NCBI GenBank assembly: GCA_029856105.1 | Contig: JAHQWH010000015.1 | Coordinates: forward strand, 1-64,000 | Length of the DNA stretch: 64,000 nt | Direction of reading: 5' to 3' | DNA from: Promethearchaeia archaeon | GTDB taxonomy: Archaea > Asgardarchaeota > Lokiarchaeia > Sigyniarchaeales > SOKP01 | Shown here: positions 12,826 through 35,577 of the stretch, in pieces | Layout of the letters: each line of letters begins with the position of its first letter | How positions within the stretch are numbered: the stretch's first letter is position 1 | The notes under the pieces: model-generated | What the model was told of the DNA's origin: nothing | Database searches by the model: none | Seen by the model: only the letters and a program-made list of their open reading frames with translations | Program-made: the position numbers and the translations under genes

Positions 12826-13074
12826 TCACAAAACATCGGATAAGTTAAGGCTTTGATCGTCAGCAATCGCTTTCCACTGCTCAATAGCTTCAAGAGCGTC
12901 TTTCTCGTTTATTTGTTCGATAGCGTACCCTGCGTGTACGATTACATACTTTCCAACTTCCGGATTTAAAATTAAAGCAGTTATTACATTCTGCTGGATT
13001 CCATCAAAGTCGACCAAAGCGGAATGCTTAGCTTCGTTGTAATCTATAATTTTTCCAGGGATAGCAAGGCACAT
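12826..13074 (-). CDS. hypC: Hydrogenase maturation protein HypC
   Basis: 82 residues. HypC/HupF family chaperone that works with HypD to carry the Fe(CN)2CO unit to the NiFe hydrogenase large subunit. The invariant N-terminus MCLAIPGKI with Cys2 and the conserved GKYVIVHAGYAIEQI with its His are present, followed by the usual acidic helix. The other assembly genes hypE, hypD and hypF are 17-22 kb away on the other strand; the hydrogenase it would serve is at 18.3-21.1 kb. hypA and hypB are not in the window. Confidence 0.93.
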   Translation of the reverse strand: MCLAIPGKIIDYNEAKHSALVDFDGIQQNVITALILNPEVGKYVIVHAGYAIEQINEKDALEAIEQWKAIADDQSLNLSDVL

Positions 13075-16790: not shown

Positions 16791-17663
16791 TTATAAACCA
16801 AGTTTTTCTAACGTGGATTTCATGCGAGTTCTGTGAAATTTCAAACCGATCTCGTCTGGATTGAAGCCCATCGCTAAAGCGTAAAGCTCTGTGATATACA
16901 TCACGGGAATATCGTATTCCGTCTCGTATTTCTTACCTAAATCTCGCTGTCTCGTGTCGAATTGTTGATAACACGCGGGACAATTTACAGCAATCACATC
17001 TGCGCCAGATTTTTTGATGGCGTCCATCTTAATCTTTAAGTTAGCAAAACCGTGTTCCTCGTAGGCGTTAGTTACAGCACTTCCGCAACATAAGATTTCC
17101 TCTCCGTAATCGACAACCGTTGCTCCACTTGCTTCTACGAGCTTCTTTAGCGTTGTTGGTCTCATGGGATCATCTGACTCCATCCATTCGGCAGGTCGCA
17201 TATAATGGCATCCTGGGTGGACAGCAACTTTTAGACCGTAAAGTGGCTTAGTTATTGCTCCTTTGACTTTGTCTAAATTATCACTTAGCACATCAACAAA
17301 ATGCTTAATGTCTATTGTCCCTTGATAATTTTTCCCGATCTTAGCGAGTTCTTTATTGACCTTATCCATTTTCCATGAATCGTGTTTTAATTGATGCTGA
17401 ACTCCTCTAAGCGTGTTGGTACAACCATTGCATAGAGAGATAATGTCTTTTCCTTCAGCTTCCGCTAAACATAAATTTCTTGCACCGATTGCTAACCAAG
17501 CGTCGTTATCAAACGATTTCATGCCCGTAGGGTCGGGGCAACACGAGAAAGGTGCTTGCGACGTTTCAATTCCAACTCTATCAAAAACTTTTCTGGATGC
17601 CGCTTCAAGGAAAGGAATACGTTTTCCGATGTAACAACCCTCAAACATTTTATATTCTGTCAT
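16791..17663 (-). CDS. hdrB: Heterodisulfide reductase subunit B homologue (set 1)
   Basis: 290 residues, two CCG domains that carry non-cubane iron-sulfur clusters in HdrB. Motifs: FSCCPDP with LCNGCTNTL in the first half, and HPGCHYMRP, CCGSAVTN and NCPACYQQF in the second. It is the last gene of vhuG-vhuA-vhuU-hdrC-hdrB and should receive electrons through HdrC and pass them to a disulfide or similar acceptor. An ATG at 17675 sits only one base after AGGAGG; ATG 17663 (MTEYKMFEG) is more plausible by spacing. HdrA is not in this operon. Confidence 0.92.
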   Translation of the reverse strand: MTEYKMFEGCYIGKRIPFLEAASRKVFDRVGIETSQAPFSCCPDPTGMKSFDNDAWLAIGARNLCLAEAEGKDIISLCNGCTNTLRGVQHQLKHDSWKMDKVNKELAKIGKNYQGTIDIKHFVDVLSDNLDKVKGAITKPLYGLKVAVHPGCHYMRPAEWMESDDPMRPTTLKKLVEASGATVVDYGEEILCCGSAVTNAYEEHGFANLKIKMDAIKKSGADVIAVNCPACYQQFDTRQRDLGKKYETEYDIPVMYITELYALAMGFNPDEIGLKFHRTRMKSTLEKLGL

Positions 17664-17680
17664 TTTTTTTATCATTCCTC

Positions 17681-18199
17681 CTATTTTAGCCTTTTATCTA
17701 CTCCAAGATTTTTTAATAAAGTTTGGAATTCATAAACATCTGGCTCCACAACAGGGGGTAAACCCAATTGCACTCTTCTACGCCCTATAGGATCTTTTCC
17801 CGTATGGGAGATAGGGATCGCTTTTCCACCCTCAAAAATTGCTCTCGCTTGTGAATAAATAAATTCAGGCGCATTTCCATCCGCTACGCTCTGGTTCTTT
17901 AATAAAGTAAAGATCTCAGTTAGTTCGATGTTCTGTGGGCAGACTTCATCACATGTATCACACACTGTGCAGCCCCAAATTGCTAAAGGATCATCGGTAA
18001 AAATCGCATCCTTATATCCTAACAATGCATTAAGAATATTACTTCTTGGATTGTATCCCGTAGTCGTATAGAAGTCTGTCGTTACGTTAGTAATTGGACA
18101 GTTGTCTGAACAGCGACTACATTGGTAGCAATATTTAATTAAATCAGACCCAATATGATAATCCATAACCTGTTTTCTAAATTCAAAATCTATTGTCAT
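17681..18199 (-). CDS. hdrC: Heterodisulfide reductase subunit C homologue (set 1)
   Basis: 172 residues. Two [4Fe-4S] binding motifs, CYQCSRCSDNCP and CTVCDTCDEVCP, in the standard HdrC layout, which shuttle electrons between HdrA and HdrB. Seventeen bases separate it from hdrB. GTG 18208 is in frame, but GTGA there reads better as the ribosome site for ATG 18199 (GTGA is used the same way before vhuU). The gene lies immediately downstream of the candidate SECIS, so its translation shares a messenger with the selenoprotein vhuU. Confidence 0.92.
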   Translation of the reverse strand: MTIDFEFRKQVMDYHIGSDLIKYCYQCSRCSDNCPITNVTTDFYTTTGYNPRSNILNALLGYKDAIFTDDPLAIWGCTVCDTCDEVCPQNIELTEIFTLLKNQSVADGNAPEFIYSQARAIFEGGKAIPISHTGKDPIGRRRVQLGLPPVVEPDVYEFQTLLKNLGVDKRLK

Positions 18200-18247
18200 T
18201 TTTTTCACTTTTTTCCATTTTTTCGTTCGTTTTTATTTAAAACATTT

Positions 18248-18285
18248 ATTGGCTTTAACCCCGGGCAGGGGTAGTTATATCCAAT
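18248..18285 (-). promoter_or_regulatory. Candidate SECIS element of vhuU
   Basis: In the RNA (minus strand) a hairpin follows the vhuU stop by 20 bases. The lower stem ATTGG/CCAAT is 281-285 with 248-252; a GC-only upper stem CCCC/GGGG is 268-271 with 259-262, around a TGCCC loop. Between the stems is an A-rich internal loop. A GC-rich hairpin in the 3' untranslated region is where archaeal SECIS elements lie. I cannot match it base by base to the methanogen GAA/A consensus; published Lokiarchaeota SECIS elements are described as intermediate between archaeal and eukaryotic forms. Confidence 0.7.
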
Positions 18286-18305
18286 CTATTATTTTTATTG
18301 GATAT
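18277..18305 (-). promoter_or_regulatory. Alternative hairpin overlapping the SECIS stem
   Basis: A perfect 9-bp inverted repeat, ATATCCAAT and ATTGGATAT (277-285 and 297-305), begins directly after the vhuU stop codon. It uses the same ATTGG strand as the lower SECIS stem, so the two helices exclude each other. Confidence 0.5.
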
Positions 18306-18458
18306 TCATCCTAAGCCAACGTTCAACTTGCGAGAGTAGATCTCTTCGCCGTCCTCTTTTACTACAGTAATGTGGGCGGCACACGATAGTCAACAGTCAT
18401 AACAACGGACTATCATTTCTAAGAGATTTACTACTCCTTCCGGAATTTCTTCGCTCAT
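18306..18458 (-). CDS. vhuU: VhuU: selenocysteine-containing C-terminal fragment of hydrogenase large subunit
   Basis: A 50-residue protein read through an in-frame TGA at 18390-18392 (residue 23). The core is RCYDCULSCAAH (U = selenocysteine), which aligns with the C-terminal DPCxxCxxH nickel-binding motif of NiFe hydrogenases: U23 and C26 replace the two nickel-ligand cysteines, and H29 is the maturation-site His. The neighbouring large subunit vhuA lacks exactly this motif. In Methanococcus the same split, selenium-containing subunit is VhuU. A 21-residue tail after H29 would be the part normally removed on maturation. ATG 18458 has a GTGA ribosome site. vhuU lies 27 bases after vhuA in the same operon, and a candidate SECIS follows the stop. 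Confidence 0.93.
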
Positions 18459-18485: not shown

Positions 18486-19790
18486 TTATTTAATCCAAGG
18501 GTCTGGTAATTTTAATCCTTCCAAGGCCTTATCTTCGAAGACTTGTTTAGCAACGTGCATTAATGACTTCTCGATTCCAGCGATATTGTGGTTTGTAGCA
18601 ACTAGAAGGTTTAACTTATTACAAATACCTTGATCGTTAGACCAGATATTATACAACAATATACCTCTAGGGGCTTCTACAACGCCTACACCGTTACCTT
18701 CTCGTGGTTCCACATCTAACGTCTTGCAATCGGGATTTACTATGTCAGGATCTTCAAGATATTGTGCTATTAATTCAATTGATTCTACTGCTTCAATAAT
18801 TCGAGCCCAATGATAGGCAAACGTGTGATGCGAAACATCGCCGATTTTGGCTTTCATTTCTTTTAAAGCCCCGTCAGCTAATGGTGTTGCCATTCGATCT
18901 GCACAATTAGTCATTGCTAGCGTATTTGCTCGATAAATGCCATCGGGATAACCTGCTGGTTTGTAATACATGTGGGTAGCATAAGAATGATCAGGAACAT
19001 GTTCTCCTAAAACATTTAGATAATCATGAACGTCGTAATCAATCTTTTTACCATCGGGAGTGACTATTCTAAGATCGCCATCGTAAATATCGTGTACTCC
19101 GTTTTTCGTCATACCAAGATAATAAGTTGGCACAACGCCTACATTAGCAACGACATCCCAATAATCAGTTACAACTTTTAGAGCGATATCAACTGTCTTC
19201 AACATGAAATCAACTTGCTCAGGAACCATTTTTAAAAACTTATCCCTTGCGGCTTCGTCCATCGGTTTTTTCATCCCACCGACTATAGCGGACACAGGAT
19301 GGACCGATTTTCCACCGATTTCAGCGCAGAGTTTTTGGCCGAAATCCATCATCTTCAATGCCATTGCTCCAACATCGGGCATCTTGTTTATCACGTGAAC
19401 GACATTCCTCAACGCTGGGTCTGCAAAAGGCCCTAAGAGGAAATCAGGTGCCGCTAACGCGTAAAAGTGCAACATATGCGATGAATACTGCTTCGCATTC
19501 ATTAACAATTGTCTAAGTTTATATGCAGCAGGAGGTATTTCAACGCCCCAAGCGTCTTCTACCGCTTTTGTTGGAGCTAAATGATGGGGAATAGGGCATA
19601 TTCCACAAATTCTTGGCGTAATCCTTGGTACATGCTCGCAATATCTGCCCTCGCAGAATTTCTCAAAAAATCTCGTTGAAGTGATATTAAATTGGGCGTC
19701 CTTTACCTTACCATCGTCTCCAATAACAATTCTTAATCCACCGTGTCCTTCTAATCGAGTGACTGGTTCAACTACTATTTCTTTTACCAT
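18486..19790 (-). CDS. vhuA: F420-nonreducing hydrogenase large subunit, truncated (VhuA/MvhA)
   Basis: 434 residues. Catalytic NiFe subunit that splits H2 in the cytosol. The N-terminal nickel motif RICGIC (C62, C65) and the family start VEPVTRLEGHGG are present. The protein ends at LKLPDPWIK without the C-terminal DPCxxC motif; that half of the nickel site is supplied by vhuU just downstream. The active site is thus built from two polypeptides. Adjacent vhuG supplies the electron-transfer subunit. vhuD/mvhD, the usual link to HdrA, is not in the operon. Confidence 0.95.
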   Translation of the reverse strand: MVKEIVVEPVTRLEGHGGLRIVIGDDGKVKDAQFNITSTRFFEKFCEGRYCEHVPRITPRICGICPIPHHLAPTKAVEDAWGVEIPPAAYKLRQLLMNAKQYSSHMLHFYALAAPDFLLGPFADPALRNVVHVINKMPDVGAMALKMMDFGQKLCAEIGGKSVHPVSAIVGGMKKPMDEAARDKFLKMVPEQVDFMLKTVDIALKVVTDYWDVVANVGVVPTYYLGMTKNGVHDIYDGDLRIVTPDGKKIDYDVHDYLNVLGEHVPDHSYATHMYYKPAGYPDGIYRANTLAMTNCADRMATPLADGALKEMKAKIGDVSHHTFAYHWARIIEAVESIELIAQYLEDPDIVNPDCKTLDVEPREGNGVGVVEAPRGILLYNIWSNDQGICNKLNLLVATNHNIAGIEKSLMHVAKQVFEDKALEGLKLPDPWIK

Positions 19791-19821: not shown

Positions 19822-21138
19822 TTATCTATAATTTTTGTTAGTCGCCAACGTAAACTTCTCAGCGAAGCCAAGCTTATCTTTTATCTGGACAAGCATTTCT
19901 TCTTTTGATAGAGCTACGTTATAACCTTTCTTTACTACATCGACATATCGTTCAATTTGGTCAACATTCCAACTCGTTTGTCCATAGCAACCAGAACAAG
20001 GCGTATTGACTTTTAAACACAATCCGCCACATCCCGCTCTTGTTATAGGTCCTGCGCAGAGATATCCTTGCTCGATTAAGCAATCCTCCATGTTAGGAAG
20101 CCCTTCGTAATCACGCTTAACTTTTGTCATTTGAGACTTACTCCCAATTTTTCGTGGACAAGTATCACATACAGTAGAAATCTCTGTAAAATCTCTACGA
20201 TTTTTCAAAAATGCCATAATCTTTGTTGCGATATTTCCAGTTTCATATGGGAGATTAGCTAATGGAGTTTGAGTTTCTCCTGTTTTTTTAACTTGCTGTA
20301 ATATATCTCCAGCAAGGTCAAAACCCGCCATTAGTGGTACGTTAAGGAAAAGCGTTAAGAACTCGTATAAATTCCTTTTATCGCCTGAACTGATTTGTTC
20401 GAGGTTCTCTGTCATTTGTGCTAATTTACCTACTCTCGAGGATACTGATTTTGCGGGTCCTAAGCATCCAACGCATGGATTTCCGTCGTCAGTACATTTT
20501 AAAGTACACCCTGTACTCGTAATGGGGCCAAAACATAATGTACCCTTCTCTAAAAAACAATTCTCGTTGTTTAGAGAGCAATCGTTGCAGAATGCAGTTT
20601 CACTCATAGGCTGTGGTTTTTGTCCAAGTAAAAATTCAACTGCCGAAAAAATTGCTTCAGGTTTAGGAGGACATCCACCCATGTAAACATCTACACTAAT
20701 AACTTCGTCAAGAGGAACTATTTTACTGGCAAAACCAGGCATATGTTCTTTTGGTTCCTTAGGATTCTCGTTAGTAATGGATTCTGCTTCGGTAAACTTC
20801 CTAGTGATTGCTTCTTGAATGTCCCATTGATTGGCTAATCCATGAACGCTTCCATAACACGCACACGAGCCGAAGGCAATAATGAGTTGACATTTTGCTC
20901 TCATTAACTTAGCGTTTTCTATGTCTGCATTGGTTCTCATACTGCCTTCAATAAAACCTACTAGAATATCTCCGTCTGGTCGTGCTTTTAACGAATCGTG
21001 CTTGAAATCAACGACAGCTGGCCAATAAACGATATCGAGTGCTGGAAGTATTTTTAACAATCCCAAATGTGCATTTAATAAGGATTGATGGCACCCCCAA
21101 CAATCTGAACTTTGCATAAAAGCTACTTTAACTGCCAT
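19822..21138 (-). CDS. vhuG: F420-nonreducing hydrogenase small subunit with duplicated Cys module (VhuG/MvhG)
   Basis: 438 residues against roughly 280-300 for typical MvhG. The N-terminal half carries the proximal cluster (DCWGC at 12-16, AFGSCACYG about 88-95, GGCPPKP about 154-160). After it come two copies of a Cys-rich module: residues about 184-226 (CNDCSL, CFGPITSTGC, PCVGCLGP) and about 324-386 (CDTCPR, CAGPITRAGC, PCSGCYGQ), separated by a 95-residue helical spacer. Each resembles the C-terminal two-cluster region of MvhG, so this subunit may hold extra iron-sulfur clusters. First gene of the operon; 31 bases precede vhuA. Confidence 0.93.
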   Translation of the reverse strand: MAVKVAFMQSSDCWGCHQSLLNAHLGLLKILPALDIVYWPAVVDFKHDSLKARPDGDILVGFIEGSMRTNADIENAKLMRAKCQLIIAFGSCACYGSVHGLANQWDIQEAITRKFTEAESITNENPKEPKEHMPGFASKIVPLDEVISVDVYMGGCPPKPEAIFSAVEFLLGQKPQPMSETAFCNDCSLNNENCFLEKGTLCFGPITSTGCTLKCTDDGNPCVGCLGPAKSVSSRVGKLAQMTENLEQISSGDKRNLYEFLTLFLNVPLMAGFDLAGDILQQVKKTGETQTPLANLPYETGNIATKIMAFLKNRRDFTEISTVCDTCPRKIGSKSQMTKVKRDYEGLPNMEDCLIEQGYLCAGPITRAGCGGLCLKVNTPCSGCYGQTSWNVDQIERYVDVVKKGYNVALSKEEMLVQIKDKLGFAEKFTLATNKNYR

Positions 21139-21281
21139 TTTTTATCATTTAATTAATTTTAATTTATGATTTTTGATTAATAAAATCTTAGTTGTGTTTA
21201 TTTAATCATAATTTTATAAAAAAAGTTATGTTTTTCTTCGATTTAAAATAAAAATTTTGCTAGAGTTCTACGATAGATTTA

Positions 21282-21583
21282 GAATGATCATTCAATTTCG
21301 AACATTCTTTTAGTTTGGGTTAATTAACACAAAGATTTATTTTGAATATTCATTCTTTTCGAATATTATTTGATCTTTTTTTTTCAAAATTTTCTAATAT
21401 TATTAAGGATTTTGATTAATTTGTAAAAAAAAATTGACTTTTCCTCTGAGAAAAGCTTAAAGTTATAAAAAAATTTCTGCTTTTCTTCATTCTGAATAAT
21501 TATATATTTTATTCAATATTATCCTTAGTGTTATTTATTGGATTGCATTGATTACTATAAAGATTTTTTTCGAATACTCATTC
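21282..21583. promoter_or_regulatory. Three GAATnnTCATTC operator-like motifs
   Basis: The sites are 21282-21293 (GAATGATCATTC, a perfect 12-bp palindrome), 21344-21355 (GAATATTCATTC) and 21572-21583 (GAATACTCATTC). The second and third are each followed by a TCGAATA stretch four to six bases later. Related but weaker sequences occur upstream of the TusA operon (27315-27326, and GAATGATTC at 27547-27555). Repeated palindromes in a promoter gap suggest a dimeric regulator; which one is unknown. Confidence 0.4.
21330..21520 (+). repeat. Diverged intergenic block A (partner 27305-27515)
   Basis: Shares in the same order and orientation a TTTTGAATAT stretch, ATTTGATCTTT, AAATTGACTTTTCC, GAGAAAAGCT and TTCTGAATAAT with block B. 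The best-kept part is a hairpin: CTTTTC (21438-21443), a six-base loop, GAAAAG (21450-21455). In block B the same stem is at 27442-27447 and 27454-27459, and only the loop differs. Confidence 0.6.
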
Positions 21584-21879
21584 TTATCGAATAAAATACG
21601 ATATAAATATTTAATCCTTTATGTACACTTTATAATCGTAAAATGTATTATAAACTTTTATAGATATCATAATTTTTTATCAAATTAATCTTCAGAAAGA
21701 TCGATGTCTCTTCTTATAATTAGAGCTTTGAAATTTTTGGAAATTATAATTTATTATAGGAAAAATTGGGAGTGAAATCCCGCCCACAATTAAAGTCTTG
21801 ATAATAATATCTTTGGACCTCCAAAAATAAAAAAATAAAAAAAATTTTAATATCAAATTCTACTTAGGATATTGAATTT

Positions 21880-25164: not shown

Positions 25165-27234
25165 ATGATGAAAAAAATAAAAACTACATGTGTTTATTGC
25201 GGAACTGGTTGTCAAGTTTATCTTAAAGTACAAGACGGGAAAGTTGTTGCTACAAAGCCTGTAAGGGATGGTTTCAATCCAGGACACGGAAAACTATGTA
25301 TTAAAGGATGGAATATGCATGAATTTATAAACTCTCCCGAAAGATTAACAGATCCAATGATCAGGAAGAATGGATCTTTAAAAAAAGTAAGTTGGGATGA
25401 GGCAATACAGTATGTTGTTGATAATTTCAAAAAGATTATGGCAGAAGATCCAGGTAATAATCGCATACTTGCATGCCTGAGTTCAGCAAAGTGTACAAAT
25501 GAGGAGAATTATGTAATGCAAAAATTCGCTCGAGCTGTTTTGTACACTAATAATGTAGATCATTGTGCAAGATTATGTCATGCTTCCACTGTTGCAGGAT
25601 TAGGATCAGCATTCGGTTCAGGTGCGATGACTAACTCGATAGATGAAATTGCTGATGCAGATGTGATTTATATAACTGGGTCGAATACTAACGAACAACA
25701 TCCATTGATAGGTACTCAGATTTTAGAAGCTCTCGATAAAGGTGCGAAATTGGTAGTGGCAGATCCTAGAACGATCCCATTATCAGAGTTAGCTGTTGAA
25801 CATGGAGGAATTGCAATGACACATAGACCTGGAACAGATGTAGCTCTATTGAATGCAATAATGAATTATATAATAAGTAATGATCTTTATGACAAAAATT
25901 TTGTTGAAAACTACTGTGAAAATTTCGAAGGGCTTAAAAAAGTCGTTTCAGAGATGACTCCAGCTAAAGCAGCTAAAATTTGTGGTGTTAACGAAAAAGA
26001 TATAATTGAAGCAGCTAAAATTATTGCAGATGCTAAAGCTTGTTCTTTAATATACTCAATGGGAATAACGCAACATTCAACTGGTACGGATAACGTTAAA
26101 TCATGTGCTAATCTTCAAATGCTCTGTGGTAATGTGGGTAAATGGGCAACTGGTGTAAATCCACTACGAGGACAGCAGAATGTACAAGGAGCATGCGATT
26201 TAGGTGCTCTTGCTAATGTCTTTTCAAGTTATCAAAAAGTTGTTGAAGCCGACAAGCGAGAAAAAATGGCTAAAATCTGGGGAATTGATGCATCTAAAAT
26301 GGATGATAAAGTTGGTCTTACTGTTGTAGAAATGATGAATGCTGCTGTAGATGGAACTCTAAAATGTTTATGGGTTATGGGTGAAAATCCCATGGTAAGC
26401 GATCCAGATATTAATCATGTAAGAAAAGGGCTTAAAAAAGTATTTCTCGTTGTCCAAGATATATTTATGACACCAACTGCAGAATTAGCTGACGTTATTC
26501 TGCCAGCGGCTTCATTTGCTGAGACAGAAGGAACATTTACTAATACAGAAAGAAGAGTCCAGATGGTAAGGAAAGCTATAGAACCAATTGGAAATACAAA
26601 ACCTGATTGGGAAATTGTTGGACTTATTGCTAAAGCAATGGGATATAATGGGTTAATTTATTCACATCCTAAAGAAATCATGGATGAAATTAATAAAACG
26701 ACACCAATTTACGGCGGAATAACATGGGATCGATTAGAGAAAAATGAAAATGGGTTTCAATGGCCTTGTCCAAATCCATCTCATCCAGGGACTATATATC
26801 TACATAAAGGTGGTGCTTTTAGTCGGGGAAAAGGTTTTTTTAACGAATGTCCATTTATAGAACCAGCTGAGCTCCCTGATGATGAATATCCATTAATACT
26901 TTCAACAGGAAGAATATTGTGGCATTTCCATACAGGAACAATGAGCAGAAGATCTCCTACACTTAATGCACGAGTTCGTGAAGGTTATGTAGAAATAAGC
27001 AAAGAAGATGCGAATGATTTAGGAATCCTTGATGGAGAAAAAGTTAAAGTTAAATCTAGACGTGGCGAGATTGCAACTAAAGCAAAAATTACACATCGCG
27101 TTAAAAAGGGCTTAATATTTATTCCTTTTCACTTTAAAGAAGCAGCAGCTAATGTTCTGACAAATCCTGCATTAGATCCTATCGCAAAAATACCAGAATA
27201 TAAGGTTTGTGCTGCTAGAATAGAAAAATTATAA
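25165..27234 (+). CDS. fdhA: Formate dehydrogenase catalytic subunit (cysteine form)
   Basis: 689 residues, the normal length of archaeal FdhA. Molybdopterin enzyme that oxidises formate to CO2 or works in reverse. The N-terminal [4Fe-4S] cysteines are C9, C12, C16 and C45. The active-site motif CARLCHASTVAGLG has Cys138 followed by His139, where many homologues have selenocysteine, so this is the Cys form even though the genome uses selenocysteine in vhuU. Molybdopterin-binding segments and the C-terminal MoCo-binding domain are complete. No FdhB/beta subunit follows; electrons may go directly to Hdr. MobA is encoded at 39.9 kb. Confidence 0.93.
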   Translation: MMKKIKTTCVYCGTGCQVYLKVQDGKVVATKPVRDGFNPGHGKLCIKGWNMHEFINSPERLTDPMIRKNGSLKKVSWDEAIQYVVDNFKKIMAEDPGNNRILACLSSAKCTNEENYVMQKFARAVLYTNNVDHCARLCHASTVAGLGSAFGSGAMTNSIDEIADADVIYITGSNTNEQHPLIGTQILEALDKGAKLVVADPRTIPLSELAVEHGGIAMTHRPGTDVALLNAIMNYIISNDLYDKNFVENYCENFEGLKKVVSEMTPAKAAKICGVNEKDIIEAAKIIADAKACSLIYSMGITQHSTGTDNVKSCANLQMLCGNVGKWATGVNPLRGQQNVQGACDLGALANVFSSYQKVVEADKREKMAKIWGIDASKMDDKVGLTVVEMMNAAVDGTLKCLWVMGENPMVSDPDINHVRKGLKKVFLVVQDIFMTPTAELADVILPAASFAETEGTFTNTERRVQMVRKAIEPIGNTKPDWEIVGLIAKAMGYNGLIYSHPKEIMDEINKTTPIYGGITWDRLEKNENGFQWPCPNPSHPGTIYLHKGGAFSRGKGFFNECPFIEPAELPDDEYPLILSTGRILWHFHTGTMSRRSPTLNARVREGYVEISKEDANDLGILDGEKVKVKSRRGEIATKAKITHRVKKGLIFIPFHFKEAAANVLTNPALDPIAKIPEYKVCAARIEKL

Positions 27235-27605: not shown

Positions 27606-27839
27606 ATGGTTGACATTACAGAAACTTTGGATGTTTCGGGCGAGGTTTGCCCTTATCCAGACGTAAAAAGTAAAAGAAAAGTTAAGAAAATGAATTCAGG
27701 AGAAGTTCTCGAGATTCTTGTCGATTATCCTCTCTCAGCTGAGAGGATTCCTGAGACAATGGAATCTTTAGGCCACAAAGTACTTTCTAACGAAAAAACA
27801 GGTACTTCGGCGTGGAGAATCCTGATTCAAATAAAATAA
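27606..27839 (+). CDS. tusA-like: TusA/SirA-like sulfur (or selenium) carrier protein
   Basis: 77 residues. TusA family: small protein that carries a persulfide (or selenide) on one Cys. The family signature is seen in DVSGEVCPYPDVKSKRKVKK, with Cys in CPYP. The C-terminal beta-strand and helix layout is complete. It is the first gene of a five-gene unit with a YedE-type permease and three DsrE-fold proteins (13 bases to the next gene). In bacteria TusA/YedF-like proteins paired with YedE have been tied to selenium as well as sulfur handling. Confidence 0.9.
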   Translation: MVDITETLDVSGEVCPYPDVKSKRKVKKMNSGEVLEILVDYPLSAERIPETMESLGHKVLSNEKTGTSAWRILIQIK

Positions 27840-27852
27840 GGTGAAAAAATAA

Positions 27853-28893
27853 ATGGAATTTATGTATGCTTTAATAGGTGGACTTATAGTTGGAGTCCTA
27901 TTTGGTTTCGTGTTGCAACGTGGAAGATTCTGTATGAATTCTGCCTTCAGAGACATAATCCTATTGAAAGAATTTAAATTAGCAAAAGCAGTAGTTATCG
28001 CGTTGATAACTCTAATGATCGGTTTCGCTATATTTGCTTTCGCTGGAGTAATTCAGTTAGCTCCAAAACCTTTAAAAATATGGGGTGCGGTTGTCGGAGG
28101 TCTAGTATTTGGTATTGGAATGGTTCTTGCAGCGGGATGTGCTAGCGGAACTACATATCGAGTAGGAGAAGGTATGGTGGGATCTCTCGTAGCTGGTTTT
28201 GGATTAACACTCGGAGCTTTAATGACTGGATTTGGCGTTTTATCTGATGCAAAAGTATTTTTGCAAAAGACAGTCATTGGAGAAGGTCCAGCACTTACGC
28301 TTTTTGGAGAATTTGGAGCATTAACCCCGATTTTTATGCTTATCTTAGGAATTGTTGGTGCTGTATTAACATTTTATTTCTGGGGATTACCTGTGCTTAA
28401 AAAGAAAATGGAAGCAAAAGAACCCTTAGTGAAATTTGACAACGCAGTTGAATCTATCTTTAAAAAAGCTTATCCTTGGTGGGTAACTGGAATCGTTATT
28501 GGAATAATCGGAACTGTTGCGTATATCGTTAGTAACGGAGTACTAGGTATTACTGGAGGATGGATGGATTTAAGTTTGTGGCTTACTACAGGAGATGTTG
28601 TTGCGTGGGCTGGTTTTATAATTCTTGGTGCTATCATTGGATCTTTCATTAGTGCTTATATCGGTGGCGAATTTAAAATTAGAGTTCCAAAAGATGGATT
28701 AACATTATTAAAACAATTGATTGGCGGAATTTTAATGGGTTTTGGCGCTGTAACAGCGATGGGATGTAACATTACTAACATTTTAGGTGGTGTTCCACAG
28801 CTTTCATTACATAGTATTATTACAGGAGCTTGTATAATGTTTGGCTCTTGGATAATGGCTTATCTTCTCTTCATGAGAGGAGACAAAGAATAA
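27853..28893 (+). CDS. yedE-like: YeeE/YedE-family permease (thiosulfate or selenium type)
   Basis: 346 residues, about ten membrane helices in two homologous halves. The conserved cysteines expected for TsuA/YeeE sulfur transporters are present: RGRFCMNSAF, LAAGCASGTTYRVGEG and TAMGCNITNILGG. TsuA imports thiosulfate by hydrogen bonding through these cysteines, and YedE relatives are proposed in selenium metabolism. The order TusA-YedE-DsrE supports import followed by hand-over of a reduced sulfur or selenium atom. Substrate cannot be decided from sequence. Confidence 0.9.
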   Translation: MEFMYALIGGLIVGVLFGFVLQRGRFCMNSAFRDIILLKEFKLAKAVVIALITLMIGFAIFAFAGVIQLAPKPLKIWGAVVGGLVFGIGMVLAAGCASGTTYRVGEGMVGSLVAGFGLTLGALMTGFGVLSDAKVFLQKTVIGEGPALTLFGEFGALTPIFMLILGIVGAVLTFYFWGLPVLKKKMEAKEPLVKFDNAVESIFKKAYPWWVTGIVIGIIGTVAYIVSNGVLGITGGWMDLSLWLTTGDVVAWAGFIILGAIIGSFISAYIGGEFKIRVPKDGLTLLKQLIGGILMGFGAVTAMGCNITNILGGVPQLSLHSIITGACIMFGSWIMAYLLFMRGDKE

Positions 28894-30155: not shown

Positions 30156-31208
30156 ATGAGTATGAAAAAAGTGAGCTCAGATCTTATTAGGTTAGCCCAT
30201 GGAGCTGGTGGAGTGTTACAAGAAGAACTTATCAATTTTATTACGAAAAATATTACTTATAAAAACGTTAATAAAGGAATAGGGGTTGCGGAGTTGGACG
30301 ATGGGGCCACGATCCCTTTAGAGGAATACGAGCGCGAAATTGTGATTACTGCCGATGGGCATACTGTTTATCCGTTATTTTTTCCAGGGGGTAATTTGGG
30401 TAAATTGAGCGTTTGCGGTACCGTGAACGATTTGATAATGATGGGCGCTCAACCAATAGCGTTAACTTCAATTTTAATCATTGAAGAAGGTTTTAAATTT
30501 GAAAAGTTGGAAAAAATAGTAAATTCGTTTAATTTTACTTCAAAAGAAGCAAACATTGCGATTATAGCTGGAGATACTAAAATAATGCCTAAGGGAACTC
30601 TGAACGAGATGATAATGGCAACTACCGGGATTGGAATCAAAGATAAAAATATAAAAGTTTTAGATAGTAACTTAAAACCCGGCGATAAAATTATCGTAAC
30701 TGGGAGTATAGGAGACCACGGTACGGCGTTAATCGGCAGTCGAGAAGGATTAAATATATCAAGCGATTTGGAATCAGATGTTGGGTTTTTACTCGAAATT
30801 TATAACGTTCTTAAACAAGATATTAGTAATAATTATATTCACGCCATGAAGGACCCAACGAGAGGAGGGATAGCAGGAGCACTGAACGATTGGGCAAATA
30901 AATCAGATATAAGTGTTGTTTTAGAAGAAGAAAAGATTCCAATTAAAAAGCAAGTTAACGCAATCTGTGAAATGTTAGGGTTAGACCCTTTTACTATTGC
31001 TTGCGAAGGAAGAGCTCTCATGTCAGTAGACCCTATTAGAGCTGAAGAAATTTTATATAAAATAAAATCAACTTCAATGGGAAAAGACGCCGAGATAATA
31101 GGTATAGTTAAGGCAGACAATCCTAAAAGAGTACTTCTGAACACGATAGTAGGGGGGACCCGGTTCGTTGATATGCCTTTAGGGGAGCCAATACCGAGAA
31201 TTTGTTAA
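30156..31208 (+). CDS. hypE: Hydrogenase maturation protein HypE
   Basis: 350 residues. Converts the carbamoyl group on its C-terminal Cys to a thiocyanate, the source of the cyanide ligands of the NiFe site. N-terminal LAHGAGGVLQEELI, the metal/ATP-binding ELDDGATIPL and TRGGIAGALND, and the diagnostic C-terminus PRIC are all present, which separates it from the related SelD. It heads a five-gene unit with an unexpected protein (31272), hypD, hypF and an iron-sulfur protein. Confidence 0.95.
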   Translation: MSMKKVSSDLIRLAHGAGGVLQEELINFITKNITYKNVNKGIGVAELDDGATIPLEEYEREIVITADGHTVYPLFFPGGNLGKLSVCGTVNDLIMMGAQPIALTSILIIEEGFKFEKLEKIVNSFNFTSKEANIAIIAGDTKIMPKGTLNEMIMATTGIGIKDKNIKVLDSNLKPGDKIIVTGSIGDHGTALIGSREGLNISSDLESDVGFLLEIYNVLKQDISNNYIHAMKDPTRGGIAGALNDWANKSDISVVLEEEKIPIKKQVNAICEMLGLDPFTIACEGRALMSVDPIRAEEILYKIKSTSMGKDAEIIGIVKADNPKRVLLNTIVGGTRFVDMPLGEPIPRIC

Positions 31209-32026: not shown

Positions 32027-33118
32027 ATGGATATACCAGGAATTAAAATTTTAAGAAGTAAAGAATTCACAGATAAAATAATTAAATCAATAAATAGAAC
32101 TGTAAAGGAAATAAAAAAACCAGTTAAGTTTATGCACGTGTGTGGCACTCACGAACACACTCTTTCGAAATATGGGCTAAGACCGTTGTTACCTAAAGAG
32201 ATTGAGATCCTTTCCGGCCCGGGGTGCCCTGTCTGCGTATGCCCCGCTGCAGATATCGACAAGGCAATTGAGCTTGGGAAACGAGACGACACTATAATAA
32301 CTACTTTTGGGGACATGATACGCGTCCCAGCTTCCAACCTTTCCTTAGCAGAATTAAAAGCAATGGGAGCGGATGTAAGAATCGTATATGGCCCTCACGA
32401 TGCGGTCGAAATTGCGAGAGAGAATCCCGATAAAGAAGTAATTTTTTTTGCCATTGGTTTTGAAACTACAGCCCCCCTAGTCGGTTACGAAATAAAAAGC
32501 GAACCCCCCTCTAATTTTTCGGTGATTTGCGCTCATAAGCTCATTCCCGCAGCGTTGGAACTATTAATAAGTCAATCACAACTAAGAATTGATGGTTTTA
32601 TTTCGCCAGGGCATGTATCTACTATAATTGGTTTAAAACCATTTAAAATATTTTCAGACGCTTATAAAGTACCAAATGTAATCGCCGGATTTGAGCCTAA
32701 CGATGTTTTGTTAGGTATTTTAATGCTACTCCAACAAATTAAGAACAAAAAGTTCGAAACTTTGAACGAATATTCGAGAGTAGTAAAACCAGAAGGAAAT
32801 AAAATCGCTCAAAATGTTATCTCAGAGGTTTTTGAATCCGTTTCCTCCCCTTGGAGAGGGATTGGGAGAATTCTTGATGGGGGTTTAGCAATACGAGATA
32901 AGTACGAAAAATTTGATGCTGATAAAAAATTCGATATTAAAATTGAAAAGTCGCAAGATATCCCACCGGGATGTTCGTGCCATTTAATAATGGTAGGTAA
33001 ACTATATCCAAACGAGTGCGAGCTCTTTGGCGAAGTGTGTACTCCACTCAATCCTATTGGCCCATGTATGGTTTCTCAAGAGGGTACATGTGCAATATTT
33101 TATAATTATCATAGATAG
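32027..33118 (+). CDS. hypD: Hydrogenase maturation protein HypD
   Basis: 363 residues. Iron-sulfur scaffold on which the Fe(CN)2CO unit is assembled with HypC. Motifs: FMHVCGTHEHT, SGPGCPVCVCP, FFAIGFETTAP, and a C-terminal Cys-rich [4Fe-4S] region (PPGCSCHLI, then four further Cys up to EGTCAIFY). The length is normal. It is followed by hypF after 53 bases. Confidence 0.95.
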   Translation: MDIPGIKILRSKEFTDKIIKSINRTVKEIKKPVKFMHVCGTHEHTLSKYGLRPLLPKEIEILSGPGCPVCVCPAADIDKAIELGKRDDTIITTFGDMIRVPASNLSLAELKAMGADVRIVYGPHDAVEIARENPDKEVIFFAIGFETTAPLVGYEIKSEPPSNFSVICAHKLIPAALELLISQSQLRIDGFISPGHVSTIIGLKPFKIFSDAYKVPNVIAGFEPNDVLLGILMLLQQIKNKKFETLNEYSRVVKPEGNKIAQNVISEVFESVSSPWRGIGRILDGGLAIRDKYEKFDADKKFDIKIEKSQDIPPGCSCHLIMVGKLYPNECELFGEVCTPLNPIGPCMVSQEGTCAIFYNYHR

Positions 33119-33171: not shown

Positions 33172-35577
33172 TTGAACGATCAAAGAACTGTAGAAATTAA
33201 TATCACAGGTATAGTTCAAGGTGTAGGCTTCAGACCGTTTTTGTATAATCTAGCTCGATCCTTAAACCTAACTGGATTTATATTAAACCGAGGGAATGCG
33301 GGAGTTCGATTAGTTTTGCAAGGTTTATCTCAATTGATTGACCAATTTTTCGAAGAAGTTAATCTTAAAAAGCCAAAAATTTCATTTATTGAAAAAATTG
33401 AGTATAAGGATTTAGATCCCAAAATACACTATAATAACCTTGAAATAAGAAAGAGTGAGCAAGGACGAGGAATTAGTTTAACTCTTCCACCAGATATTGC
33501 AATTTGCGACGATTGTTTAATAGACATGAATAATCCCAAACTACCGAAGTATTACAACTATCCATTCATAGCGTGCGCCGTTTGCGGACCGAGATTTACA
33601 ACGGTTAAGGATTTACCATACGATAGAGAGCGAAGTACGATGGTAAATTTTCCTTTCTGTAATAAAGCAGAACCAGAATCTTGCATACAAGAATATTCGA
33701 ATTTTAATAATAAGAGATTTCACGCTCAAACATTTGCTTGTTCTGTTTGCGGTCCTAATTATCAGCTTTACGATAAAGGAAAAAACTCTATTAAAACAGA
33801 TTCGATTGACGAGATATTAAAGATAACTACAAAAAGGATAAAACAAGGAGAAGTTGCGGCAATCAAGGGAATAGGTGGAGTCCATTTAGTTTGCCTTGCT
33901 AACGACGATAAAATAATTCTAGAGCTACGCAGGAGGAAAGGGAAGAGAAAACATAAACCTTTTGCTTTAATGGTTCCAAATTTAGAAATTATTGAGGATT
34001 ACTTTAGCATTTCAGAAAGAGAAAGGGAACTTTTATCTTCTTTTCGCAGACCAATTGTGGTTTTAGAGAAAAATAAAAACTTTAATAAATCTGACATAAG
34101 CGAATTCGTGGCTCCCGGTTTAAACAACATCGGAATTATGCTTCCATATTCAGGTATTCATTATTTACTTTTTGACCATATTGGAAAACAGCCATTAATT
34201 TATACAAGTGGGAACAAATCGAATATTCCTATGGCACTTGAAAACGAAAAGATATTTGATCAACTCAACAATTTAGCCGATTTCTTTCTACTTCATAATA
34301 GACCCATATACCAACGAGCAGACGATAGTGTGCTAAGAGTTCATAACTACAAAGTGAAGCTGATTAGAAGGTCGCGAGGTTATGTACCAGAATATTTACC
34401 ATTACATTTTGAAGTTAAAATCCCAAGTGCTATAGCTACAGGTCCAGAATTAGCAGTGACAGGTGCTTTATTGCGAAGAAATCGAATTTTCCAGACTCAA
34501 CATATTGGAAATGTAACGCACCTTGAAACATACGATTTTTTAAAAAATGCGCTTTTTCATATGAAAAAATTGCTTCAGATAAAAGATTCTGAAATAAAAT
34601 TTATCGCTTGCGACGCTCATCCAGCTTTCGTTACGACTAAGCTAGCAAAGGAGCTATCTGAACTATTAAACGTCAATTTATACCGTATCCAACACCATTA
34701 CGCTCACGCTTTAAGTTTAATGGCGGAAAATAAAATTGCATTAGACGAAAAAATCGTTTGCATAAGCACAGATGGAGTTGGTTACGGCGAAGACGGGAAT
34801 GTTTGGGGGGGTGAAATCTTATTAAGTTCTTATCACGGTTATACACGTCTCGGTCATTTAGAAAATCAGCCTATGATTGGAGGAGACCGATGTACTAAAT
34901 ATCCCGCTAGAATGACGTCTTCCATCGTCCTTAACGCTCTCGGTGTTGAAAAATCAGTAGAAGTATTCAAACAGATTGCCTTAGAAAACGATTTGGAGCA
35001 TAAAAGCACGGAATTGAAAACGATTATTTCTCAATTTGAGCGCGCCGATTATCAATTTCCTAACGAAAATATCCCATTAACAAGTTCCACCGGTAGAATC
35101 TTTGACGCTATTTCATATATTCTAGGAGCTTCGAAATTAAAAAGTTATAGAGGTGAACCTGCTATGAGGCTAGAGGGTTTGGCGTCGAAAGGAAATCCAG
35201 ATAAGATTAAATTAGACATTAAGTATTCGAAGAAAAATGGAATTTATCTTATCAATACTTCAGATTTAATTTTAGACGTAATAAATTTACTAGAAATTAA
35301 AGATTCCAAAAGACAAGATATTGCCGCAAAATTTCAAGTAGAAATTGGATTAGCATTTGCGAAAGTTGCGATTAAAATTGCCAAAGAAAACGATATAGAA
35401 ATGATAGGATTAACTGGTGGCGTTGCTTATAACGATGCTTTTTCAAAGGCGATAAAAGAACGAATCATTAAAGGAGGATTTAGTTTCATTGAACACAATA
35501 TAGTGCCACCTGGGGACGCGGGAATAAGCGTAGGTCAATTAATTGGGGGAACCTTCAAGTATAATAAAAATATTTAA
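33172..35577 (+). CDS. hypF: Carbamoyltransferase HypF
   Basis: 801 residues. Uses carbamoyl phosphate and ATP to carbamoylate HypE. Domains in order: acylphosphatase (GIVQGVGFRPF, about 1-90), two zinc fingers (CDDCLIDM, CAVCGPRFT, CSVCGPNY, about 110-195), YrdC-like (about 200-390) and Kae1-like carbamoyltransferase (IQHHYAHALSLMAEN, about 410-800). All are complete. Start codon is TTG 33172, giving MNDQRTVEINITGIVQG; this fits the domain boundary well. Confidence 0.95.
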   Translation: MNDQRTVEINITGIVQGVGFRPFLYNLARSLNLTGFILNRGNAGVRLVLQGLSQLIDQFFEEVNLKKPKISFIEKIEYKDLDPKIHYNNLEIRKSEQGRGISLTLPPDIAICDDCLIDMNNPKLPKYYNYPFIACAVCGPRFTTVKDLPYDRERSTMVNFPFCNKAEPESCIQEYSNFNNKRFHAQTFACSVCGPNYQLYDKGKNSIKTDSIDEILKITTKRIKQGEVAAIKGIGGVHLVCLANDDKIILELRRRKGKRKHKPFALMVPNLEIIEDYFSISERERELLSSFRRPIVVLEKNKNFNKSDISEFVAPGLNNIGIMLPYSGIHYLLFDHIGKQPLIYTSGNKSNIPMALENEKIFDQLNNLADFFLLHNRPIYQRADDSVLRVHNYKVKLIRRSRGYVPEYLPLHFEVKIPSAIATGPELAVTGALLRRNRIFQTQHIGNVTHLETYDFLKNALFHMKKLLQIKDSEIKFIACDAHPAFVTTKLAKELSELLNVNLYRIQHHYAHALSLMAENKIALDEKIVCISTDGVGYGEDGNVWGGEILLSSYHGYTRLGHLENQPMIGGDRCTKYPARMTSSIVLNALGVEKSVEVFKQIALENDLEHKSTELKTIISQFERADYQFPNENIPLTSSTGRIFDAISYILGASKLKSYRGEPAMRLEGLASKGNPDKIKLDIKYSKKNGIYLINTSDLILDVINLLEIKDSKRQDIAAKFQVEIGLAFAKVAIKIAKENDIEMIGLTGGVAYNDAFSKAIKERIIKGGFSFIEHNIVPPGDAGISVGQLIGGTFKYNKNI

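Follow-up and report, generated by a model that had tools for sequence, protein, structure and literature searches.

VhuU, a predicted selenocysteine-bearing C-terminal fragment of a split [NiFeSe] hydrogenase from an Asgard archaeon, and the cysteine beside its selenocysteine

The short gene at 18306-18458 of the window (the whole 64,000-nt stretch of Promethearchaeia DNA that was analysed) is vhuU, which encodes the selenocysteine (Sec)-bearing C-terminal part of a [NiFeSe] hydrogenase whose large subunit is split. We hold with high confidence the explanation as a whole, in which VhuU would be the Sec-containing piece that completes VhuA, the large subunit of an Mvh/Vhu-type enzyme encoded next to it, and the case is built from the ORF, its conservation and the selection acting on it, covariation in a SECIS element, the Sec machinery and the truncation of VhuA. 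The preliminary description of this locus was right in its inference, for a kind of gene that is already known: FrhA, MvhA and VhuU are among the widespread Asgard selenoproteins (Huang 2024, PMC11227280, where Mariotti 2016 is also cited for them), and a VhuU of ~50 aa has been named in Asgard archaea (PMC11291895), so that a VhuU of this type is no novelty. The one part that merits follow-up is a single residue, the Cys that adjoins the Sec.

The gene, its relatives and its SECIS element

The preliminary description left the strand unstated; the gene lies on the minus strand, running from 18458 to 18306, and the plus-strand reading of the same interval contains no ORF, its frame being meaningless. 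Translation confirms what had been observed, namely 50 codons with an in-frame TGA at 18390-18392 giving RCYDCULSCAAH, within the peptide MSEEIPEGVVNLLEMIVRCYDCULSCAAHITVVKEDGEEIYSRKLNVGLG that is followed by a UGA stop. As had also been anticipated, the ORF ends at the internal UGA under standard gene callers. The features of the gene are as follows.

18306..18458, minus strand: vhuU, 50-aa selenoprotein (translation; NCBIfam VhuU, E=2e-14; TGA conserved in 127 Asgard homologues; pN/pS 0.16 after the TGA)
18393..18395, minus strand: Cys codon immediately preceding that of Sec; Pro (DPC/DPU) occupies this place in other hydrogenases
18390..18392, minus strand: in-frame UGA, read as Sec, predicted terminal Ni ligand of DCUxxC
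18381..18383, minus strand: Cys that closes UxxC, predicted to bridge Ni and Fe, invariant in 127/127 loci
18309..18371, minus strand: C-terminal tail of 21 residues following the conserved His (21 aa in 120/127 loci)
18248..18320, minus strand: SECIS element, with an AUGA quartet overlapping the UGA stop, a 9-bp upper stem, an AAAAA apical loop and an AA 3' quartet

The peptide is homologous to the C-terminus of hydrogenase large subunits, with UxxC and the His that follows it, and matches the VhuU profile (NF041786) over 41/45 positions at 53 bits, which is below the curated cut-off of 70; it also matches the C-termini of FrhA and of sulfhydrogenases. A homologue search across 228 genomes from this phylum returned matches in 171, the stronger ones with one TGA at the same place and the weakest being fused Cys forms. 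When 130 loci were retrieved and re-read, 127 proved to have TGA at that codon (111 distinct peptides) and three to have Cys, counts that are not of independent events, the Asgard loci being related to one another. The frame is open across the TGA in 127/127 of the Sec-type loci, and comparison with the VhuU of relatives, which the preliminary description had proposed as a check, found no further disruption of the region around the TGA. Because these loci keep frame, TGA and motif alike, the vhuU ORF is far beyond chance. In 59 Loki loci, pN/pS is 0.16 after the TGA vs 0.09 before it; the region past the UGA is therefore translated as protein, under purifying selection. A TAA is present inside the VhuU tail of one relative (L066, G113), six residues past the conserved His, and may be a sequencing error or a sign that the tail is dispensable.

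Downstream lies a SECIS element that fits the published Asgard model of a type I eSECIS-like structure with an AUGA_[G/A]A core, an upper stem of 7-15 bp and an A-rich loop, and more narrowly that of Lokiarchaeia, with an AUGA_AA core, an AAAAA loop and a stop UGA overlapping the AUGA (PMC11227280). It reads in order AUGA, AUAUCCAAU / AAAAAUAAUAG / AUUGGAUAU, AA (also ATGA / 9 bp / AAAAATAATAG / AA, 18320-18248), and a lower stem, UUGGCUU/AAAGCCAA, starts within the coding sequence and encloses the hairpin; the fold has a z of -2.5. UGA is thus used in two senses within one gene, 27 codons apart, once for Sec and once for termination, the second UGA also belonging to the SECIS core. A hairpin fitting a loose pattern is found in 119/127 loci, exactly at the stop in 110 of these. 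Across 46 Loki sequences, 94.8% of cells pair and double changes occur in 12/21 pairs, and the 57 compensatory cells observed compare with 14.9 +/- 6.0 in shuffled data, where 0/500 shuffles reached as high a value; the covariation is also above that of all slid controls. The AUGA_AA type is the Asgard/eukaryotic one, in contrast to the GAA_A type of euryarchaea, and archaea are not known to have an SBP2-like protein that binds SECIS elements (PMC11227280). A GC-rich CCCC/GGGG side hairpin (18268-18271 with 18259-18262, minus strand) lies in addition on the 3' side, between quartet and lower stem, and is kept in Loki and Thor sequences, so that the element resembles a three-way junction; this side hairpin shows little variation and is less strongly supported as real.

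The Sec machinery and the meaning of the UGA

The preliminary description had named a lack of Sec machinery as evidence that would tell against it and proposed a search of the genome for selD, pstK, sepSecS, tRNA-Sec and SelB-like genes; all were found, and the pathway is complete. SepSecS (478.6 bits) and PSTK (139.5 bits, below the curated cut-off) are encoded, as is an aSelB/EFSec that has a Pfam aSelB_III domain and an archaeal SelB as its best PDB match, with a SelB score below the curated cut-off. Bacterial SelA is absent from the genome, as expected for the archaeal pathway. Two Sec-type selD genes lie in tandem (L321, G000:C222) with one TGA each, and both are apparently selenoproteins themselves.

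The tRNA-Sec gene, with a UCA anticodon, lies directly upstream of SepSecS on the minus strand (G000:C16, about 26715-26870), where it was located by BLAST with a congener's tRNA-Sec (59 bases, 100% identity); the sequence flanking this match contains the 5' and 3' halves of the acceptor. Standard tools miss it because two introns break the gene, one of ~33 nt within the D-stem and the other of ~30 nt within the T-loop: on this genome, ARAGORN and the Rfam gathering threshold gave no tRNA-Sec, and tRNA-Gly and tRNA-Leu look-alikes only. The intron-split gene rules out that tRNA-Sec is missing, and once spliced it adopts the full 9/4 fold with a 7-bp D-stem (-52.1 kcal/mol). Similar insertions are found in many relatives, several congeners sharing both and other family members having none; an intron in the T-arm of Lokiarchaeal tRNA-Sec had been described before (PMC5330540). 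Since the assembly is that of a MAG in fragments (238 contigs, with completeness of 92% and contamination of 6%), single contigs with Sec machinery could be foreign, though relatives also carry both vhuU and tRNA-Sec.

These findings bear on two other ways of reading the UGA. It might be an ordinary stop, with the similarity beyond it a decayed leftover from a large subunit that was formerly fused; this is where standard callers terminate the ORF, the C-terminal motif is detached from VhuA, and MAG assembly errors can create stops. A pseudogene is, however, at odds with the recurrence of this TGA across many Asgard genera (127 loci), with a SECIS that covaries and with a complete Sec pathway, and we count it as already refuted by the purifying selection past the TGA across relatives, so that it retains almost no credence. 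It is just as hard to believe that the UGA is read through as Trp or Cys. UGA is reassigned in some lineages, and Cys stands at this place in the split paralogues of three other Asgard genomes, but UGA is also the terminal stop in 116/127 vhuU genes, so there is no global reassignment; moreover, the SECIS is specific, and tRNA-Sec with its UCA anticodon, SepSecS and aSelB are all present. Reading as Sec, as the preliminary description had it, is supported by the Sec pathway, by the TGA kept in relatives and by the SECIS, and on these grounds the UGA at 18392-18390 is almost certainly decoded in this way.

Two chains and one nickel site

Immediately upstream of vhuU, which starts 27 bp after its end, is the gene for the large subunit, and the surrounding window encodes further candidate partners and maturation factors.

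18486..19790, minus strand: vhuA, large subunit, 434 aa (NCBIfam VhuA, E=1e-137 over residues 4-418)
19822..21138, minus strand: vhuG-type small subunit, 438 aa (NCBIfam VhuG, E=1.1e-66; PDB 5ODC MvhG and the 9SFI small subunit)
17681..18208, minus strand: hdrC-like 4Fe-4S protein, downstream of vhuU (NCBIfam HdrC-like TIGR03290, E=8.4e-21)
16791..17675, minus strand: hdrB-like CCG protein (NCBIfam HdrB TIGR03288, E=2e-80)
12826..13074, minus strand: hypC, maturation chaperone (TIGR00074, 79 bits, exceeding the cut-off of 48)
30156..31208, plus strand: hypE (TIGR02124, E=4e-112)
32027..33118, plus strand: hypD (TIGR00075, E=7.9e-144)
33172..35577, plus strand: hypF (TIGR00143, E=1.3e-223)

VhuA has the N-terminal RICGIC, with two Ni ligands, and ends ...EGLKLPDPWIK without DxCxxC, in agreement with the earlier remark that the gene directly upstream lacks the C-terminal motif. 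The arrangement is general: of the 127 loci, 101 show a VhuA gene upstream in the same orientation, with a DxCxxC of its own in 0/101, and for the other 26 no VhuA was seen within the retrieved stretch. Precedent for such a division exists in a solved F420-non-reducing hydrogenase (PDB 9SFI/9T1S), which has a 418-residue large subunit, matched by VhuA at E=4.5e-123, a separate 27-residue VhuU chain and a matching small subunit. The 27-residue chain covers the same motif region as the VhuU peptide, with which it aligns, ends just after CAAH and has a non-standard X at the Sec position. In alignments with solved hydrogenases, the Sec falls on their Ni-ligand Cys. The solved enzyme differs from the one here in having DP(X) where DCU is found and a small subunit of 288 aa as against 438 aa for VhuG. 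Likewise, the VhuU/VhuA of Methanococcales (F420-non-reducing [NiFeSe]; NF041786/NF041785) have a split large subunit and a selenoprotein of ~45-50 aa with C-terminal UxxC, encoded beside vhuA, their motif being DPUxxC, as in the solved 27-residue chain, rather than DCUxxC. From the Asgard FrhA/MvhA/VhuU selenoproteins, with their Sec piece of ~50 aa and a type I eSECIS-like element that has the AUGA_AA core and, in Lokiarchaeia, the AAAAA loop, the gene here shows no essential difference. The VhuG-like protein is ~150 aa longer than solved small subunits and has its Cys-rich C-terminal segment (CxxC...CAGPITRAGCG...CSGCYG) in two copies.

In the scheme that we favor, Sec insertion, the sharing of the nickel, processing and coupling to Hdr are all argued from homology. 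The internal UGA would be decoded as Sec by tRNA-Sec carried on aSelB/EFSec, the signal being the eukaryote-like SECIS at the terminal UGA, and VhuU would then dock on VhuA, standing in for the missing C-terminus of an F420-non-reducing hydrogenase. The Ni-Fe centre, which the window-encoded HypC, HypD, HypE and HypF would build, would be bound by the two Cys of the VhuA RICGIC together with the Sec and Cys of the VhuU UxxC. VhuA and VhuU very probably share the nickel in this manner, and the same proposal in the preliminary description gains support from homology to the solved split enzyme. As the solved 9SFI chain has no tail and the genome encodes a protease of the HycI family, the 21 residues past the His of VhuU are probably removed by a HycI-type cut. 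Electrons would run via VhuG to HdrB/HdrC-like partners of the same cluster, a flow to an Hdr-like complex that is suggested by the HdrC- and HdrB-like genes after vhuU. An HdrA2-like gene is found at about C19:63750-65770, and no VhuD was found beside vhuG in 21138-21850. Elsewhere in the window, at 27606-28893, a TusA/YedF-like protein followed by a TsuA/YedE-family transporter adjoins a formate dehydrogenase alpha gene, and this pair possibly serves the uptake of thiosulfate or selenium.

The preliminary description had also considered that a complete large subunit with a Cys DPCxxC motif encoded elsewhere, together with a TGA further disrupted in relatives, would speak against it. Further disruption is not seen, and a complete large subunit is indeed there: it is encoded at C225 and ends in DPCISCASH. 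VhuU might on that account be a small carrier in its own right, for redox or for selenium, with the C225 protein as the working large subunit, an idea with which the departure of DCU from DPC is in keeping, as is the neighboring Cys-Sec pair, of a sort known elsewhere from thioredoxin reductase. Yet the alignment of VhuU with the Ni motif at the C-terminus of hydrogenases is exact, VhuA is without that motif in every case seen, the two genes adjoin in 101 loci, and 9SFI is a two-chain enzyme. The C225 protein itself is a divergent, ShyA-like enzyme, rejected as partner or replacement, and we regard a carrier role for VhuU as highly improbable.

The cysteine beside the selenocysteine

In VhuU, a Pro, itself no metal ligand, is usual before the Ni-binding residue (DPUxxC), and the preliminary description passed over the fact that DCUxxC departs from the canonical DPCxxC. 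Among the 111 distinct Asgard split peptides, the residue before Sec is Cys in 108, Pro in two and Asn in one. The fused Cys-type MvhA of other Asgard archaea has the same C-terminal motif region but is a single chain with DPCxxC, and DPC(xxC) is found in 16/16 of the fused Asgard homologues sampled. Because the fused homologues keep DPC, the Cys goes with the split architecture, and it is, as far as the compared sequences indicate, tied to the split Asgard lineage. Relatives labelled Methanopyri have DIU, and bacteria of the Desulfurobacteriaceae, like 9SFI, have DP; since Ile can occupy the position, a Pro before Sec is no defining feature of VhuU, and DCUxxC is kept here as a sequence variant.

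Does the Cys do anything? A literature search that covered material other than figures and supplements found no mention of the DCU motif, of a Cys before Sec or of how this differs from the fused DPC forms, which is weak evidence. We advance as a tentative suggestion, and one about which we are more doubtful than hopeful, that DCUxxC is a distinct active-site motif of the split Asgard enzymes in which the Cys has a real job, either in a reversible, protective Se-S bond or as an extra ligand. It is speculative that the Sec is guarded by the adjoining Cys through a reversible Se-S bond or in some other way; if true, such a bond would guard it during metal insertion or oxidation. A role for the Cys would then represent a new variation on the [NiFeSe] active site and offer a testable route to how anaerobes protect that site.

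The three split Cys paralogues (L124, L134, L142) have DCCLSCSAF, with Phe replacing His; they come from genomes of Thor-, Jord- and Sigynarchaeota type, in which the Sec form is encoded as well, and their Sec/Cys VhuU pairs resemble the Sec/Cys isoform pairs of Methanococcus. In Desulfurobacteriaceae (L169, L170, L184, L189, L224, L229, L249), the hydrogenase C-terminus has an in-frame TGA (RAYDPUIACAVH) and is apparently fused.
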